Assembly: GCA_029862185.1 (NCBI GenBank)
Contig: JAOTXX010000020.1
Location: forward strand, 1 to 55,649
Source: Myxococcales bacterium
Lineage (GTDB): Bacteria; Myxococcota_A; Polyangia; Polyangiales; Houyiibacteriaceae
Direction of reading: 5' to 3'
Length of the DNA stretch: 55,649 nucleotides
In this document: piece by piece, positions 9,796 to 27,860 of the stretch
Numbering within the stretch: position 1 is the first letter of the stretch
Layout: every line of letters starts with the position of its first letter
The notes under the pieces: generated by a model
Databases searched by the model: none
Told to the model about the DNA's origin: nothing
The model's input: only the letters and a program-made list of their open reading frames with translations
Program-made: the position numbers and the translations under genes

Positions 9796-10071
9796 CTAGA
9801 TGCCCAAGTTGGCGAGGCTCTCGGAGACGCTCCTCAGGATGTCTGCGAACTTGGGATAAGAGGTTTCGAAGTCTTCGATGAGCGCGGTGACCCGTTTGCT
9901 CAAAGGCCCGCCCTCGCCGGGCTTGTTCCCGGGGTCGTCCTGCCCGAGGGCGTCCTCGATTTCCCGGACGGCTTGTAGCAGGGCCTCGCGGTCCTCCGGC
10001 TCGATTTCCGCACCGGCCTCGAGCTCCCGATGAAGGGCGACCAAGGCGCGGTTCAACTGCTGGCGTGGCAT
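9796..10071 (-). CDS. DUF4404 family protein
   Basis: A 91-residue soluble, mostly helical protein. The N-terminal MPRQQLNRALVALHRELE helix and the C-terminal segment ending in SVSESLANLGI match the DUF4404 family, whose function is unknown. The ATG at 10071 is preferred because the upstream in-frame extension to 10140 does not look like protein. It is divergent from the thioesterase gene and converges with the small lipoprotein gene. Confidence 0.7.
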   Translation of the reverse strand: MPRQQLNRALVALHRELEAGAEIEPEDREALLQAVREIEDALGQDDPGNKPGEGGPLSKRVTALIEDFETSYPKFADILRSVSESLANLGI

Positions 10072-10214
10072 ACCCACGATACTGCCCGCTTCTGTCCTAC
10101 AGGGGAAGAGGTCTTTCGGGCGGAGGGCACGATCTCCCAACCCTGGCCGGCTGATGTGTGCGCGCGTCTACAAGCGGTTGGAGCTGCGGCATGACCTGAT
10201 GCTAGCGTCTCCCT

Positions 10215-10640
10215 ATGGATAGCTACCCGGTGCAGCTAGAGATCCCCGTCGCCTGGGGCGACATGGACGCCTTCGGTCATGTGAACAACACCGTCTACCT
10301 GCGCTGGTTCGAGTCGGCGCGGATTGCGTTCTTCGAACGGATCGATATCGACGCGACTCGGCCGGAAAAGGTCGGGCCCATCTTGGCGTCGACGACCTGT
10401 GACTATCTCACGCCGGTCGCGTATCCGGCCACTGTCGTCGTCGGCGCCCGCGCGCAACGCGTCGGCAACACCAGTTTCATGATAGAGCACTTGGCGACAA
10501 AAGACGGAGCTCCGGTCGCTCGCGGCAGTGCCGTGGTCGTGCTCATCGACTACGAGACTGGCGAGAAGGTCCGTGTACCCGATGAGATACGTAGGGCAAT
10601 CGACTCTCTCGGCGGCGGGCAGGCCAAAGAACCTCGCTGA
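10215..10640 (+). CDS. Acyl-CoA thioesterase, 4HBT hotdog fold
   Basis: A 141-residue single hotdog-fold thioesterase. The active-site region WGDMDAFGHVNNTVYLRWFE contains the conserved Asp and the HVNN segment of the YbgC/4-hydroxybenzoyl-CoA thioesterase family. It hydrolyses acyl-CoA thioesters in the cytoplasm; chain preference is not predictable. It is divergent from DUF4404 and converges with the peroxiredoxin gene. Confidence 0.88.
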   Translation: MDSYPVQLEIPVAWGDMDAFGHVNNTVYLRWFESARIAFFERIDIDATRPEKVGPILASTTCDYLTPVAYPATVVVGARAQRVGNTSFMIEHLATKDGAPVARGSAVVVLIDYETGEKVRVPDEIRRAIDSLGGGQAKEPR

Positions 10641-10663
10641 GAGAGCCGTTTGATCGCTGCGAG

Positions 10664-11302
10664 CTACTTGTTTGGCTGAGGGGTCATCCGGAGGTACGGC
10701 CGGAGCTCACGGTGACCCTTTGGGAACTTCTCGGCGATCTCCTTGGCGTCGGTGATCGACGGCACGATGACGACATCGTCTCCATCTTTCCAATTGGCTG
10801 GGGTTGCGACTTGGTAGCCATCGGTCAGCTGCAGGCCGTCGAGCACCCGCAGGACCTCGTCGAAATTGCGGCCGGTGGCGGGAGGATACGTGATGGTCGC
10901 ACGGATCTTCTTGTTTGGGTCGATGAAGAAGACCGAGCGAACGGTGAGCTTTGCATCGGCTTCCGGGTGAATCATTTCGTAGAGGGTGGCGACTTTCTGA
11001 TCGGGGTCAGCGACGATCGGAAAGTTCATCTTTACGTCCTGGGTATGTTCGATGTCTGCGATCCAGCCATGGTGAGACTCGAGGGAGTCGACGCTTATGG
11101 CTAACGTCTTTGCATTGCGCTTGGCAAATCGGTCTCGGAGCTTCGCAACGAGACCAAGCTCGGTCGTGCAGACCGGCGTGAAGTCTGCAGGATGCGAAAA
11201 GAAGATGACCCAACTGTCGCCGGACCAGTCGTGAAAACGAATGGTCCCTTCGGTGGTCTCGGCTTCGAAATCAGGTGCCGTGGTTCCTAGCTTTAGGCTC
11301 AT
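10664..11302 (-). CDS. 1-Cys peroxiredoxin (Prx6 family)
   Basis: A 212-residue peroxiredoxin with the peroxidatic site PADFTPVCTTE; the reactive residue is Cys45. The length and the C-terminal extension (PATGRNFDEVLRVLDGLQ) are those of the Prx6/LsfA group, which reduce hydrogen peroxide and organic hydroperoxides with a single Cys. AGGAGC before the ATG at 11302 supports this start; the upstream extension in frame is not coding. It lies downstream of the ECF42 sigma gene on the same strand, with a 130-base gap, so an oxidative-stress link is possible. Confidence 0.93.
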   Translation of the reverse strand: MSLKLGTTAPDFEAETTEGTIRFHDWSGDSWVIFFSHPADFTPVCTTELGLVAKLRDRFAKRNAKTLAISVDSLESHHGWIADIEHTQDVKMNFPIVADPDQKVATLYEMIHPEADAKLTVRSVFFIDPNKKIRATITYPPATGRNFDEVLRVLDGLQLTDGYQVATPANWKDGDDVVIVPSITDAKEIAEKFPKGHRELRPYLRMTPQPNK

Positions 11303-11432
11303 TGGCTTGCTCCTTTTTTTCCGGCAGCCATGCGGCTGCGACGGCGGGGTGCTCCCCGTCATCCTGGATCGATAGGGCACGGCGCGCTGGTCCAAAAGGG
11401 GCCGCCGCGAGGTTTATCTGGGTTTGCCGCGC

Positions 11433-12686
11433 TCAGCGGGCCCGCGGAATCGCCGTGCCACGCACTTCACGAAGCCGACCTTCGAGGAAACGGCGCTCGG
11501 GGTCGTTGGTCGCGAGCTCGATGGCCCGCTGGTAGGCGTCCTCGGCTTCCGGACCACGCCCTAGGGTCCGGAAGAAATCGGCGCGTGCGGCGTGGAACGG
11601 GCCATATCCATCGAGGTCATCGGCCAGCGGACCCAGCAAGCGGAGCCCTTCTTCCGCGCCGTACGCCATCGAGACGGCGACGGCATGATTGAGTGCGACG
11701 ACCGGCGTGGGCCGCGTCTGAAGCAGCTCGTCGTAGAGTCGCGCGATTTGATTCCAATTGGTGTCCTTGGCCTCGACAGCCCGGGCGTGCTCGGCCGCAA
11801 TCGCGGCCTGAATGCGATAGGCACCGCCTGGTGAAAGTTGCCCCGTCTCGTTGCACAGCCTTAGACCCTCCTCGATCTGCGCTCGGTTCCAGAGCGTTCG
11901 ATCTTGATCGCGGAGAAGCACCAAGTCGCCTCGAGCGTCGCTTCTGGCGTGACGCCTCGAATCCTGTAGTAGCATCAAGGAGAGCAGACCACGAGCTTCA
12001 GCCTCCTCGGGCATCAGCTCCGACAAGACGCGCGCGATGTGGATTGCATGCGCACAGAGCTCCTGACGCACGACCTGCTCACCGCTCGAGGCGCTATAGC
12101 CTTCGTTGAACAGCAGGTACAGGACCAGCAGGACCGCGTCGAGGCGCTCGGGCATTTCGCTCCGAGCGGGCACTCGATACGGAATGCCGGCTTCCCGAAT
12201 CTTTCGTTTCGCGCGAACGAGGCGCTGGGCCATCGTCTGCTCGCTCACCAAGAAAGCGCGGGCGATCTCAATCGTCGGAAGCCCAGCCACCGTGCGCAGG
12301 GTCAAGGCCAGCTGCGCCTCCTGGTTGAGCGCCGGATGACAACAGGTGAAAATCAGCCGAAGCATGTCGTAGGGGATGGGCGTCCACTCTTCTTTGCCGC
12401 CGGGCAGGTCCGCCGTATGACCGAGCTCGCTCGACTTCGCCCGCGCGCGTTGATCCCGGCGCATCGAGTCGATTGCTTTGTGTCGCGCGGTTTGAAGGAG
12501 CCAGGCGCCGGGAGTATTCGGGATTCCTGCTCTCGGCCACTGCATCATGGCCGCAACCACCGCGTCGTGCAGCGCTTCTTCCGCCAGGTCGAAGTCGCCT
12601 CCACAGGTTCGAATCAGCGACGAAAGAATCCGTGCTCGCTCCGCCTTGAGAACGACGTGCAGTAGCTCGTGAGCAGAGGTTGACAC
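11433..12686 (-). CDS. ECF42-type RNA polymerase sigma factor with C-terminal TPR-like domain
   Basis: A 417-residue ECF sigma factor. Region 2 (about 10-75, AWLLQTARHKAIDSMRRD) and region 4 (about 110-165, GLPTIEIARAFLVSEQTMAQ) are followed by a ~240-residue helical extension (DUF6596/TPR-like). This extension and the DGPF-domain gene immediately upstream define the ECF42 group, which lacks a classical anti-sigma factor. The GTG start at 12686 has GGAG upstream. The gene follows the DGPF gene by 23 bases and is probably co-transcribed. Matched promoters in front of the DGPF and VOC genes suggest autoregulation and at least one extra target. The inducing signal for this group is unclear. Confidence 0.93.
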   Translation of the reverse strand: MSTSAHELLHVVLKAERARILSSLIRTCGGDFDLAEEALHDAVVAAMMQWPRAGIPNTPGAWLLQTARHKAIDSMRRDQRARAKSSELGHTADLPGGKEEWTPIPYDMLRLIFTCCHPALNQEAQLALTLRTVAGLPTIEIARAFLVSEQTMAQRLVRAKRKIREAGIPYRVPARSEMPERLDAVLLVLYLLFNEGYSASSGEQVVRQELCAHAIHIARVLSELMPEEAEARGLLSLMLLQDSRRHARSDARGDLVLLRDQDRTLWNRAQIEEGLRLCNETGQLSPGGAYRIQAAIAAEHARAVEAKDTNWNQIARLYDELLQTRPTPVVALNHAVAVSMAYGAEEGLRLLGPLADDLDGYGPFHAARADFFRTLGRGPEAEDAYQRAIELATNDPERRFLEGRLREVRGTAIPRAR

Positions 12687-12709
12687 GCGCGCGGCTCTCC
12701 GATTCTAAG

Positions 12710-13060
12710 TCACTCGTAGTGCCAGATCGGACGGACCTCGATGGTCCCGAAACGTGCAGATGGGATGCGTGCCGCGAGCGAGATTGCCTCGTCCAGATCT
12801 TCGGCGCTCACGAGGTAGAACCCCCCGAGTTGTTCCTTGGTTTCGGCGAACGGGCCGTCGGTGGTGATGGTTTTCCCTTCGCGGACGCGGACCGATGTCG
12901 CTGTGCTCGTGGGTTGCAGCGCATCGCCGGCGACGAATTGACCGCCGTCCCGAACCGACGCCGTGAAGGCGCCGTATTCCTGGAAAACCTGGTTGCGGGT
13001 CTTCTCGTCGCGAGCGTGAAGCGCCTTTTCGTCCTCGTAGATCAGCAGCAGATAGTTCAT
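12710..13060 (-). CDS. YCII-related DGPF-domain protein (ECF42 partner)
   Basis: A 116-residue protein beginning MNYLLLIYEDE and carrying the signature TTDGPFAETKEQLGGFY, the DGPF motif of YCII-related proteins. These almost always sit beside ECF42 sigma genes and are their direct targets. GGAGG lies upstream of the ATG at 13060. The predicted promoter at 13136-13162 on the same strand would drive this gene and the sigma gene together. Its biochemical role is unknown; the YCII fold suggests a small-molecule or enzymatic function. Confidence 0.92.
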   Translation of the reverse strand: MNYLLLIYEDEKALHARDEKTRNQVFQEYGAFTASVRDGGQFVAGDALQPTSTATSVRVREGKTITTDGPFAETKEQLGGFYLVSAEDLDEAISLAARIPSARFGTIEVRPIWHYE

Positions 13061-13135
13061 GGGGCTCCTCCGGGGTTGCGGTGTGGGGGGCTGGGCAACC
13101 CGGTGAACCCGAAATTGCCTGCCTTTTTTGGTTTA

Positions 13136-13162
13136 GTCGAGTGAGGCCGGCTGTTCTCGACA
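13136..13162 (-). promoter_or_regulatory. ECF42-type promoter for DGPF-sigma operon
   Basis: On the minus strand the sequence reads TGTCGA, 17 bases, then CGAC. The reported ECF42 promoter in Streptomyces has TGTCGA at -35 and a CGA/TC-type -10 (recalled from the literature). The element ends 75 bases before the DGPF start codon. Confidence 0.75.
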
Positions 13163-13189
13163 TGGTGCTGGAAAAAAATCGTCAGAGAG

Positions 13190-13216
13190 TGTCGAATTCC
13201 GGGCTCCCGGCTCGAC
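13190..13216 (+). promoter_or_regulatory. ECF42-type promoter for VOC gene
   Basis: On the plus strand the sequence reads TGTCGA, 17 bases, then CGAC, identical in both boxes and spacing to the minus-strand element at 13136-13162. Both have TCGACT at the -10. It lies 43 bases before the VOC start codon, making that gene a predicted ECF42 target. Confidence 0.75.
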
Positions 13217-13259
13217 TGGGGAATGACGGGGCCGTCGCCCCGCGACGAAAGGAGCCCTC

Positions 13260-14006
13260 ATGAGCTATGAACACGGAAGGTTTGTTTGGTTCGAGTTACA
13301 CACAAAGGACATCGACCGAGCCACGTCGTTTTATCCGGAGACCCTGCCTTGGCGAATCGAGCCCACGAAAATGCAGGCGGGGCCCGACTACTGGATGATT
13401 CAGGCGGGCGAAGCCGGCGTGGGCGGTGTCATGTCGTCGCAGGGTGACGTGCCGACGGCATGGGTGAGTTATGTCTCGGTCCCTGACGTCGATGCAGCGG
13501 CCAAGAAAGTCGTTGCCGCGGGCGGCACGACGCACATGGACGCGTTCGATGCGCCTGGCGTTGGCCGGATGCAGCCCGTCAGTGATGCGCAGGGCGGGAT
13601 GTTCTGCCTCTTCAAGGGGGAGACAGGTGATCCCCCGCGTGTCGACGGGCCGGGCTCGCTCCACTGGAACGAGCTTTGGACCCAGGACCCCGAAGCATCC
13701 CTCGCGTTCTATGAGAAGGTGCTCGGATACACCCACGAAGAGATGACCATGCCAAATGGGAAGTACTACATCTTCAAGGATGGAGACCAGATGCGCGCCG
13801 GCATGCTGCAAGCTCCGAGCTCCGACATCCCGACGATGTGGCTGCAGTACATCACCGTGGACGACTGCGATGCAACCCTTGCGCGCGCCAAGAAAAACGG
13901 CGCCACTGTCGTTGCGGAGCCGATGGACGCCGAACCCGGACGCTTCGCCATTCTGCGCGATCCGCTCGGCGGCATGATCGGCGTGATCAAACCGGCAAAC
14001 GCGTAG
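13260..14006 (+). CDS. Two-domain VOC (glyoxalase/bleomycin-resistance fold) protein
   Basis: A 248-residue protein made of two consecutive VOC modules: residues about 1-122 (FVWFELHTKDIDRATSFY...FCLFKGE) and 130-245 (LHWNELWTQDPEASLAFYEK...GMIGVIKPAN). VOC proteins are often metalloenzymes or binding proteins; the reaction here is unknown. AAGGAG precedes the ATG. It is divergent from the DGPF-sigma operon and has its own ECF42-type promoter, so it is probably part of that small regulon. Confidence 0.9.
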   Translation: MSYEHGRFVWFELHTKDIDRATSFYPETLPWRIEPTKMQAGPDYWMIQAGEAGVGGVMSSQGDVPTAWVSYVSVPDVDAAAKKVVAAGGTTHMDAFDAPGVGRMQPVSDAQGGMFCLFKGETGDPPRVDGPGSLHWNELWTQDPEASLAFYEKVLGYTHEEMTMPNGKYYIFKDGDQMRAGMLQAPSSDIPTMWLQYITVDDCDATLARAKKNGATVVAEPMDAEPGRFAILRDPLGGMIGVIKPANA

Positions 14007-14104
14007 CGCGGGACCCGAGGTTCTCGGGGGCGATCCCCGCTGGCCAGATCCTTCTGAGCCCGCTATATCCGCCGGAGTGAAACACGTTCCATTTTGGCGA
14101 CCGC

Positions 14105-15721
14105 GTGGCTGACTACGACTACATCGTGGTGGGATCGGGGTCTGCGGGGGCGATCGTCGCTGCCCGCCTCGCGGAGGATCCCAAGGTCAGCGTCCTGCTG
14201 CTCGAAGCCGGGGGGAGTGACCGGACGACGTTCGTCCGCAAACCCGGCATGATCAGCCTGGTTCAGCAGGTCAAGCAGCTCAAAGAGAAGTTGGACTGGG
14301 GCTTCGAAACGGCGCCACAGGTGCATCTCAACGACCGGCGCATCACCTACACACGCGGAAAGGTCGTCGGGGGTTCGAGCTCGGTCAACGGGATGATCTA
14401 CCTCCGCGGTAATAGGGAGAACTACGACGATTGGGCCGCCCGCGGCTGCGACGGCTGGAACTTCGACGAGGTGCTGCGGTTCTACAAGAAGCTCGAAGAC
14501 CACCAAGACGGCGAGACGGAGTATCACGGTGCCGGGGGCCCGATTCGGATCAGCCGGCACCCGGCGGATGAGCTCAGCCCTGTCTCCAATGCATTCCTGA
14601 AGGCGGTGTCCTCGGTCTGCGACGTTCCCATTCTCGATGACTTCAACGCGGAGAATCAGAACTGCGCGGGCATCTTGCAGATGTCCTGCCGCGATGGTGT
14701 TCGCAGCGGAACGGGTGAAGCCTACGTTCAGCCGAGCCTCTCGCGCCCCAATTTCCACTTGGAAATGCGCGCCCTCGTTCAACGCGTCCTCATCGAGAAC
14801 GGACGCGCTGTGGGGGTGGAATACGAGCAGTCCGGCAGGCGGGTCGTCAACCGTGCGAACCGCGAGGTGATCCTATCCGGAGGCACGATCGGCTCACCGC
14901 AGTTGCTCATGCTTTCGGGACTGGGGCCGGCAGACCATCTTCGCGAGCACGGCATCGAGGTGAAGCAGGACCTGCCCGGCGTGGGCCAGAACCTGCACGA
15001 CCATCTTTTGGTGCCTCTGGTCTTCCGGGCGCGCACCAGCCTGCACCGCGGCACAGCGGCGCATTTTTTTGGCGGCATGATCAGGGAGTACACGCTCGGA
15101 AACAGCTGGTTCGGGAGAACCGTCTTCGAGGCCTGCGCGTTCATCAAGAGCCACCCGGCTGCGCCGATTCCTGACCTGCAGCTCCATACGCTTCCCTGGG
15201 GGTATCCGGATCCAAATCAGGACGGTCCGGAGCGTGCATACGTCGATACCGGACACTGCTTGTCGGTGCTCCCGACGCTTCTCTATCCGAAAAGCCGAGG
15301 CGAAGTGCGACTGACCTCGACCGATGCAGCCGATGCGCCGCACATCGATCCGGCATACCTCAAAGAGCCCGAGGACATGCAGTTCTTCCTCCGCGCCATT
15401 CGCAAGTGCCGTGAGATTTGCAGCCATCCGGAGATGGCCGAGCATCTCGCAGAAGAGCTCGCGCCGGGTGTCGAGCGGGCGAGCGACCCCGAGCTCGTCG
15501 AAGAGATCAAGCTGCGCGCGGGGACGGTGTACCACCCCGTAGGCACCTGCAAAATGGGCGTCGACGAGATGGCCGTCGTAGACCCGCGCCTACGTGTGCA
15601 TGGCATCGATGGGCTGCGAGTCGTCGATGCTTCGATCATGCCCAAGATCACTGGCAGCAACACGAATGCGCCCAGCATGATGATCGGCGAACGGGCCGCC
15701 GCCTTGATTCAACAAGGCTGA
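14105..15721 (+). CDS. GMC family FAD oxidoreductase
   Basis: A 538-residue glucose-methanol-choline oxidoreductase. The N-terminal Rossmann motif is YDYIVVGSGSAGA, and the second GMC signature is present (LSGGTIGSPQLLMLSGLGPA). The catalytic His477 lies in TVYHPVGTCKMG, and a GSNTN segment near residue 520 holds the usual second active-site residue. It oxidises an alcohol to an aldehyde or ketone with FAD. Sequence style is closest to choline or alcohol dehydrogenases of the BetA branch, but the substrate is not known. The start is GTG at 14105 with no clear ribosome site. Confidence 0.92.
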   Translation: MADYDYIVVGSGSAGAIVAARLAEDPKVSVLLLEAGGSDRTTFVRKPGMISLVQQVKQLKEKLDWGFETAPQVHLNDRRITYTRGKVVGGSSSVNGMIYLRGNRENYDDWAARGCDGWNFDEVLRFYKKLEDHQDGETEYHGAGGPIRISRHPADELSPVSNAFLKAVSSVCDVPILDDFNAENQNCAGILQMSCRDGVRSGTGEAYVQPSLSRPNFHLEMRALVQRVLIENGRAVGVEYEQSGRRVVNRANREVILSGGTIGSPQLLMLSGLGPADHLREHGIEVKQDLPGVGQNLHDHLLVPLVFRARTSLHRGTAAHFFGGMIREYTLGNSWFGRTVFEACAFIKSHPAAPIPDLQLHTLPWGYPDPNQDGPERAYVDTGHCLSVLPTLLYPKSRGEVRLTSTDAADAPHIDPAYLKEPEDMQFFLRAIRKCREICSHPEMAEHLAEELAPGVERASDPELVEEIKLRAGTVYHPVGTCKMGVDEMAVVDPRLRVHGIDGLRVVDASIMPKITGSNTNAPSMMIGERAAALIQQG

Positions 15722-15730
15722 ACCCGGGCC

Positions 15731-16099
15731 TCAAGCTCGCGCGAATAGAAGCAGCGCGAGTGCAATCATGGCGGGGAGACCCTGCAGGAACAGGATCGAC
15801 ATCTTCGCGGTGATCGCTCCGTACAGCCCTGCAAGAGCCACGCAACTGAGAACAAACACCTTCAAGGTGAACGCGGTATCTGGATTCGCGACCAAGAAGC
15901 TCAACACCAACCCTGCGGCCAAAAAGCCGTTGTAAAGGCCTTGGTTGGCCGCCAGGGTTTTCGACGTCTCGGCGTCCTCTTTCGAGAGGCCGAACGTCTT
16001 TCGACCCAGGGGCTTGGTCCATAAGAACATCTCGAGCACCATCGCCCAAACGTGGAAGACGATGACGTAGACGATGAGCGAGTGGATCAGGATGTTCAC
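15731..16099 (-). CDS. DUF1304 integral membrane protein
   Basis: A 122-residue protein with about four membrane helices. The segment VLEMFLWTKPLGRKTFGL followed by LAANQGLYNGFLAAG is diagnostic for DUF1304, a small inner-membrane family of unknown function. The GTG at 16099 gives the usual family length; an ATG at 16153 and the longer frame to 16285 would add non-conserved residues. It is divergent from the isocitrate dehydrogenase gene and converges with the GMC oxidoreductase gene. Confidence 0.8.
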   Translation of the reverse strand: MNILIHSLIVYVIVFHVWAMVLEMFLWTKPLGRKTFGLSKEDAETSKTLAANQGLYNGFLAAGLVLSFLVANPDTAFTLKVFVLSCVALAGLYGAITAKMSILFLQGLPAMIALALLLFARA

Positions 16100-16144
16100 G
16101 CGGGGCGAGCCTATCAGACCTTCGGACGCCGTTACCAGGGATGA

Positions 16145-18535
<2,391 letters not shown>

Positions 18536-25922: not shown

Positions 25923-27860
25923 GTGGGGGGTCTTCTTGGCACGAGGTTGGCGGGGCTGAGCCTTGCCTTGATGCTTTCGGTGGGTTGTTCGGGCGACTCG
26001 GATTCGACGGGTTCAGGGGGTTCCGGAGGCGGCGGCGGCACGGGAGGAGTGATCTCCCCGGACTGCGGCGACCGGACACGCGATGCGACCGAGGCTTGCG
26101 ATGATGGGAACCAAACGGACGGCGACGGCTGTTCGGCCGACTGCATGTTGATAGAAGAAGGCTACCGTTGCCCCACGGTCGGCGTCCTTTGCGTCGCGAT
26201 CGTCTGCGGTGATTCCCGGATCGACCTTCCGGAGACTTGCGACGATGGCAACGCGACCGGCGGCGACGGATGTAGCCCGACGTGCGAAAGGGTGGACGGA
26301 TGGTCCTGCCCGCTTCCTGGCGTGGCCTGCGCCGCCACCGAGTGTGGCGACGGAATCGTAGCGGGGTTCGAGCAGTGCGACGACGGCGACGCCATGCCTG
26401 GCGACGGTTGCTCCGACCAGTGCCAGCTCGAGGACGGCTATAAGTGCGACACGCCCGGTGCAGACTGCGTGCCGATTCAATGCGGTGACGGCATTCGAGA
26501 AGGCACCGAGCAGTGCGATGATGGAAACGCTACACCGTTCGACGGCTGCGACTTGGCCTGCAAGAACGAGCCAGATTGCGACGGCGGGGTCTGCCAGTCC
26601 GTGTGTGGCGACGGGGTGATCCTTCCCGGTACGGGCGAAGCCTGTGACGACGGAAATACGAACGACGGCGATGGCTGCTCGAGCAGCTGCCAAGAGGAGG
26701 AGGGCTTCGACTGCGTGCTGTCTCCGGTAGACCTGGGCGATGAGCTTTCCATCCCCGTCATCTACAGAGACTTTCGAAGCAACGACACCATCGACCCCGT
26801 GCCGACGACGTTCAGCTTGGACTTCAACAATCCCGACGACTCCAACGGCGCGATCGCATTCGACATCACGGCGGACCTGCTGGATGCAGAGGGCAAGCCC
26901 GAGCTCTCGGGAGAGAACCCCTACGTCTATGGATCCAACGAGGGCCCCTCCCACAGCGCCGCATCGTTTGCGCAGTGGTACCGAACCAGCCCTACGCTCG
27001 ATCCAACCGGCAACGTACAAGTCGTCGGAGAGCTCGTCCTTCCGAACACCGGCGCCAACGTGTACGAGTTCGACAGCTCGGACTTCCCTCCGGGGTTCTT
27101 TCCCTTGGATGACCCTGCGCTTGCGCCACTCGCATGGCCGGCTGAGCCGACGTACGGCGAGACTCTTTTCGTTCCGAGTGGTGGCACCGACCCCCGCAAC
27201 TTCGGATTTACGACGGAGGTGCACTACTTCTTCGTCTACCAGGGCGACGAGGTGCTTACCTTTAGCGGCGACGATGACCTCTGGGTTTTCGTCGACGGTT
27301 TTCTCTGCCTCGACGTGGGTGGGCTTCACCCGAGGGTCACCGATGTGATGAGCTTCGCAAACCCCGCCGATGCGGGAAGCGCGACTCAGGAAACCATCGT
27401 GACTGATTGTAAGTCGCGCCTGACGTCTGACGCGGTCTACGAGGTCGCGATCTTTCATGCAGAGCGGCACACCGGCGCGTCCAACTTCAGGCTCACGCTC
27501 GACGGCTTCGTCACCGAAATTTCGAGCTGTGACTATACCTGCGGCGATGGCATCGCGACCCGATTCGAGTTCTGCGACGACGGTCCCGGGCAGAATACCG
27601 GCGCCTACGGGCACTGCCTACCGGATTGCTCCGGGCTAGGCCCGTACTGCGGCGACGGCAGTGTCGACGCGGGTTTCGAGGAATGCGACGACGGAGACAA
27701 CCTCGGCGGGCCTGGCGGCTGCAACCCCGACTGCACGGAGGGCCCGAGCTGTGGAGACGGAATTCGGCAGCCCGAGCTCGGCGAAGGGTGCGATGCGGGT
27801 CCGGACAATGGAGTTCCTGGCTCCGGATGTAGCGCCACCTGCGAGGTCGTCGTCGAGTAG
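25923..27860 (+). CDS. DUF4215 Cys-rich repeat / fibro-slime domain lipoprotein
   Basis: A ~645-residue surface lipoprotein. The lipobox is LALMLSVGC, then a Gly/Ser linker. Residues about 45-260 hold five or six DUF4215 units of the form CGDG..E.CDDGN..DGDGCS..C. A fibro-slime/PA14-like domain follows (YRDFRSNDTI...FSGDDDLWVFVDGFLCLDVGG...ASNFRLTLDGF), and further Cys-rich units close the chain. The architecture is typical of myxobacterial surface or matrix proteins that bind sugars or mediate adhesion. The start is uncertain: GTG 25923 is used. An ATG at 25915 with a short basic lead is one base out of frame across a run of six G, so a sequencing error there is possible. Confidence 0.85.
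   Translation: MGGLLGTRLAGLSLALMLSVGCSGDSDSTGSGGSGGGGGTGGVISPDCGDRTRDATEACDDGNQTDGDGCSADCMLIEEGYRCPTVGVLCVAIVCGDSRIDLPETCDDGNATGGDGCSPTCERVDGWSCPLPGVACAATECGDGIVAGFEQCDDGDAMPGDGCSDQCQLEDGYKCDTPGADCVPIQCGDGIREGTEQCDDGNATPFDGCDLACKNEPDCDGGVCQSVCGDGVILPGTGEACDDGNTNDGDGCSSSCQEEEGFDCVLSPVDLGDELSIPVIYRDFRSNDTIDPVPTTFSLDFNNPDDSNGAIAFDITADLLDAEGKPELSGENPYVYGSNEGPSHSAASFAQWYRTSPTLDPTGNVQVVGELVLPNTGANVYEFDSSDFPPGFFPLDDPALAPLAWPAEPTYGETLFVPSGGTDPRNFGFTTEVHYFFVYQGDEVLTFSGDDDLWVFVDGFLCLDVGGLHPRVTDVMSFANPADAGSATQETIVTDCKSRLTSDAVYEVAIFHAERHTGASNFRLTLDGFVTEISSCDYTCGDGIATRFEFCDDGPGQNTGAYGHCLPDCSGLGPYCGDGSVDAGFEECDDGDNLGGPGGCNPDCTEGPSCGDGIRQPELGEGCDAGPDNGVPGSGCSATCEVVVE

Follow-up and report, generated by a model that had tools for sequence, protein, structure and literature searches.

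A divergent pair of putative ECF42-type promoters in the spacer between a DGPF-sigma operon and a VOC gene of a Myxococcales bacterium

The window analysed here is the whole 55,649-nt stretch of contig JAOTXX010000020.1 from a Myxococcales bacterium, and its genes between 9796 and 16285 encode DUF4404, thioesterase, peroxiredoxin, sigma, DGPF, VOC, GMC oxidoreductase and DUF1304 proteins. The DGPF and VOC genes are transcribed away from each other and are separated by an intergenic spacer of 199 nt (13061-13259). The features of the locus, in window coordinates, are:

11433-12686, minus strand: ECF42 sigma factor of 417 aa with a TPR-like C-terminal half (Pfam, AlphaFold model, TPR matches)
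12710-13060, minus strand: DGPF/YCII protein of 116 aa carrying the DGPF signature (Pfam YCII, 1.4e-22)
13127-13129, minus strand: predicted DGPF-sigma transcription start, inferred from the same offset as the VOC start, with a leader of ~67-69 nt
13136-13139, minus strand: -10 box CGAC of the putative DGPF-sigma promoter, 17 nt from the -35 box (sequence and congener alignment)
13157-13162, minus strand: -35 box TGTCGA of the putative DGPF-sigma promoter (sequence; invariant in G000, G005, G010, G018 and G016)
13170-13181, plus strand: A-tract GGAAAAAAATCG between the two -35 boxes, of which GGAAAAAAA is kept in six of six aligned congeners
13190-13195, plus strand: -35 box TGTCGA of the putative VOC promoter (TGTCGA also in G005, G010 and G012; TGTCCA in G016 and G018)
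13213-13216, plus strand: -10 box CGAC of the putative VOC promoter, 17 nt from the -35 box and invariant in six aligned congeners
13225, plus strand: predicted VOC transcription start with a 35-nt leader, inferred from a TG step at the ECF42 pyrimidine-purine position
13248-13254, plus strand: ribosome-binding site AAAGGAG of the VOC gene (sequence)
13260-14006, plus strand: two-domain VOC (glyoxalase-like) protein of 248 aa (Pfam Glyoxalase)

Pfam places three domains in the sigma factor (r2 at residues 19-80, r4_2 at 112-163 and DUF6596 at 181-280), and residues ~175-410 form an all-helical AlphaFold model with a mean pLDDT of 86. The top fold matches of this C-terminal half are consensus TPR proteins (E ~2e-4, with a modest TM of 0.34), and it also gives weak profile matches to TPR proteins. 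With regions 2 and 4 only, a DUF6596/TPR-like extension of ~200 residues, an adjoining DGPF/YCII gene and the promoter TGTCG[AG]-N17-CG[AT]C, the protein is an ECF42 sigma, as assigned here by domains, TPR-like extension, gene context and target promoter. The DGPF gene lies directly upstream of the sigma gene across a gap of 23 nt, and the DGPF signature of its product is invariant in the alignment. The sigma is the only DUF6596 protein in the genome and the gene at 12710-13060 is the only YCII gene found there, so the assignment of promoter to sigma is not confused by paralogues. Pfam recognised no anti-sigma among the genes from 9796 to 16285, anti-sigmas being a group that diverges widely. 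A 1-Cys-type peroxiredoxin gene (10664-11302) lies on the same strand ~130 nt past the sigma gene and occupies the same place in the congeners G005 and G010; it was considered as the third gene of the operon and set aside because of this gap and because no such gene was found next to the ECF42 gene of G018 or at the loci of other relatives. The VOC protein is similar over its full length to Rv0577 (3OXH, 3.4e-41) and to the KbpA model NF053614 (1.1e-24), and its identification as KbpA itself was rejected, as it scores 87.5 bits against a cut-off of 250 bits. Intact copies of the VOC gene from five congeners give a dN/dS of ~0.07-0.13, indicating strong purifying selection.

The spacer carries the motif TGTCGA-N17-CGAC once on each strand, as TGTCGAGAACAGCCGGCCTCACTCGAC on the minus strand (13136-13162) and as TGTCGAATTCCGGGCTCCCGGCTCGAC on the plus strand (13190-13216). 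The two copies point outward from each other, toward the DGPF-sigma operon and the VOC gene, respectively, and are 27 nt apart. The first-pass annotation had described identical boxes at a spacing of 17 on both strands, facing these two transcription units, and both the arrangement and its coordinates proved exact. When the spacer was shuffled 20,000 times with its dinucleotides preserved, the motif appeared on both strands in none of the shuffles and on either strand in 0.03%. The likeness of the elements is limited to the boxes, as 6 of the 17 bases between them are common to both; the pair is therefore read as two separate promoters and not as a single long inverted repeat. The A-tract between the -35 boxes is possibly a shared UP-like element that would help both promoters.

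To place the motif among known relatives of the sigma, we compared 138 ECF42 loci, comprising 58 from the same order and 80 from many phyla, scanning the region upstream of the first DGPF gene. At a spacing of 17 the box pair is present upstream of the operon in 23 of the 58 same-order loci, where no other spacing between 8 and 27 accounts for more than 4, and in 21 of the 80 others, where no other spacing accounts for more than 3; neither the reversed nor the coding controls had an excess at 17. Over half of the relatives' loci (35/58 and 59/80) lack the exact motif at the scanned place. In many loci without an upstream motif it occurs just after the sigma gene or ahead of another gene of the cluster, and further copies lie just downstream of sigma genes that have no DGPF gene upstream. 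A profile of 88 sites adds preferences for T right after TGTCGA and for CGTT ahead of the -10 box, and 82% of these sites have a pyrimidine-purine step at bases 34-35, 9 nt past the -10 box. The comparative set thereby sharpens the ECF42 promoter to TGTCGAT[TC] ... CGTTCG[AT]C, with a spacing of exactly 17 and a start 9 nt after the -10 box. The earlier proposal that the spacer elements match the ECF42 promoter is borne out by the recurrence of the boxes and their 17-nt spacing ahead of ECF42/DGPF operons across many phyla, and the prediction that both are ECF42-type promoters is strongly supported. Near ECF42 clusters of other phyla, the motif also precedes SnoaL, polyketide-cyclase/AHSA1, DinB, YdeI-like, MAPEG, DUF1579 and PhnB-type VOC genes (loci L142, L143, L160, L164, L165, L176, L205, L076, L118, L121, L141, L150 and L135).

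The offset of the predicted starts can be compared with the RpoE10 promoters of S. meliloti. RNA-seq or 5' RACE had located the starts at SMb20475 and SMc01149, and the printed promoter sequences end 9 nt past the -10 box, where we read the end of a printed sequence in the table as the start base; the last base of SMc01149 is in lower case, which according to the footnote marks a start that both methods gave (PMC6180224). On the VOC side of the spacer the same offset would place the start at 13225. The DGPF-sigma start is predicted with less confidence, as the pyrimidine-purine step there comes 2 nt earlier. Conservation in G005, G010 and G018 is good over 13110-13130 (minus strand, AAAAAAGGCAGGCAATTTCG), a region that would be transcribed early in the DGPF operon, and the leader gave no match in Rfam.

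The 4.29-Mb genome was searched for other targets. The scan that the first-pass annotation had proposed, with the loose pattern TGTCGA-N16-18-CGAC, turned out to be unspecific, as it returned 142 matches versus 20 for the reversed control (7-fold); a pattern met this often in the genome is not by itself what makes the case strong. A third match in the window, with N18, lies at 27662-27689 inside the open reading frame 25923-27860 and is most likely due to chance. The pattern TGTCGR-N17-CGWC matches the genome 59 times, and only the two spacer sites are both intergenic and less than 200 nt from a downstream start, with gene starts taken from a simple codon-usage gene call. These matches were then ranked by a profile of flanks and spacers built from 87 sites of other genomes, in which congeners and the box positions were left out. 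The two spacer sites rank first and second of the 59 with scores of 11.5 and 4.8 (mean -10.5), the VOC-side site being the best in the genome, and none of the other 59-set sites scores well. Candidate targets elsewhere, sought with strict and degenerate N17 patterns, were discarded since they are only intragenic or badly placed, the degenerate searches giving matches inside genes only. The motif had been put forward as a search pattern for the remaining targets, and it led to no other site close upstream of any gene. The regulon in this genome is thus probably local, consisting of the DGPF-sigma and VOC units, as judged from the box pattern; a weaker site that departs from this pattern may exist.

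Conservation in the genus is concentrated in the boxes, as 18 of 20 box positions are invariant among congeners versus 32 of 75 other core spacer positions (Fisher p 1e-4). The sister species G018 keeps the whole arrangement, with TGTCCA as its VOC-side -35 box. Divergent VOC and DGPF-sigma units with a motif on each side are also present in G021 and G026, which belong to other, more distant genera, and in G035 and a Polyangiaceae MAG the motif is followed by a VOC gene in line with it. The distance between the elements is ~20 nt in G021, 27 nt in the window and 86 nt in G026, whereas the internal spacing is constant at 17. Of 19 genomes of the genus, 7 carry this VOC gene or a fragment of it, and the ECF42 sigma belonging to this locus occurs in only 2. 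Four congeners, namely G005 (locus L216), G010 (L207), G012 (L208) and G016 (L210), have lost the sigma-DGPF operon through deletions with differing endpoints; as listed in window coordinates, the deletions span 11504-12252 plus 12381-13087 in G005, 11502-13086 in G010 and 10641-13168 in G012, and that of G016 is a separate event relative to G018. No DUF6596 protein was found in G012 or G016, both scored 100% complete, the congener genomes being draft assemblies. In two sigma-less congeners, G011 (L214) and G005 (L216), even the VOC gene is truncated or has an internal deletion, as if the whole locus were eroding.

In the sigma-less congeners the boxes of the VOC promoter match those of the nearest sigma-bearing relative. 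That this promoter has been kept under selection there, with another sigma having taken over, seems unlikely to us; if true, it would mean that an ECF promoter can outlive its own sigma. Selection on the VOC promoter after the loss of the sigma is unsupported, because the geneless DGPF-side promoter is equally intact in G005, G010 and G016, and the sigma losses may accordingly be recent.

We favor the reading, at a probability of about 0.86, that the two spacer elements are divergent promoters, both recognized by the ECF42 sigma whose gene lies to the left of the spacer. Four findings count against it: the failure of S. meliloti RpoE10 to induce its own DGPF-sigma operon (PMC6180224), the TGTCCA box of G018, the 35/58 and 59/80 loci without the exact motif, and the congeners that keep the VOC promoter without ECF42. 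In a rival reading the sigma drives one side only, the VOC-side boxes being real but non-essential and the VOC gene normally expressed from another promoter; in its favor, the VOC gene is intact in the sigma-less G010, G012 and G016 and its -35 box is changed in both G018 and G016. We nevertheless consider this improbable, since the VOC-side boxes are kept in G005, G010 and G012, this very site tops the genome on the flank profile, motifs precede divergent VOC genes in other genera too, and no sigma-70-like promoter was found in the region.

The inverted order of identical boxes within one divergent spacer would also be expected of a single inverted-repeat operator, through which a repressor or activator would control both genes in place of sigma contacts. 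This is very improbable: the inter-element distance varies among genera at a fixed internal spacing, which speaks against a joint operator, the majority of other ECF42 loci carry just one element, in the sense orientation, the bases between the boxes are largely different in the two elements, and a start-site signature recurs at a fixed offset. Finally, chance matches in a TCGA-rich genome could be suspected from the sevenfold excess of the loose pattern over its reversed control, yet their likelihood is close to negligible given the outcome of the shuffles, the top ranking of both sites on the flank profile and the conservation of the sites in congeners and other genera.

In the favored reading of a promoter pair served by the ECF42 sigma, RNA polymerase carrying the sigma would bind the minus-strand TGTCGA and CGAC boxes and transcribe the DGPF-sigma operon, which would probably create a positive loop, and would bind the plus-strand TGTCGA and CGAC boxes and transcribe the two-domain VOC gene. 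The activity of the sigma is probably set by its TPR-like C-terminal half rather than by an anti-sigma (cf. PMC8999054). Autoregulation, which had been suggested from the promoter match, is likely in view of the 23-nt gap between the DGPF and sigma genes, and it is not to be assumed, because overexpression of RpoE10 in S. meliloti did not raise its own DGPF gene (PMC6180224). The VOC gene is a well-supported candidate target of the sigma, the divergent arrangement with a motif on each side recurring in G021 and G026; its addition to the regulon is new for this lineage only.

The locus resembles that of S. meliloti RpoE10, also an ECF42 sigma, in the spacing of 17, the DGPF/YCII gene upstream of the sigma gene and the start 9 nt after the -10 box, and differs in its boxes, which are TGTCGG and CGTC for RpoE10 and TGTCGA and CGAC here (PMC6180224). 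Two targets induced by RpoE10, SMc01148 and SMb20475, have glyoxalase-like domains, and ECF42 control of VOC genes thus already has an experimental precedent in S. meliloti; however, the induced targets of RpoE10 are separate operons, whereas the VOC gene of this locus is transcribed divergently from the sigma operon, across a spacer common to both (PMC6180224). The S. venezuelae sigmas Sven_0747, Sven_4377 and Sven_7131 are described in the review PMC8999054 as having, like the sigma of this locus, a TPR extension of ~200 residues and a YCII/DGPF partner. The review text states, after Liu et al. 2018, that the S. venezuelae ECF42 sigmas have no anti-sigma, and, unlike the case here, it does not describe a VOC partner. 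An apparent two-target, one-spacer ECF42 system would offer a clean model for the signal sensed by TPR-bearing ECF42 sigmas and for the role of the DGPF protein. Relative to the known systems, the present analysis adds the shared divergent spacer, a predicted regulon of two units, a tighter definition of the promoter and the observation that sister species have lost the sigma repeatedly.
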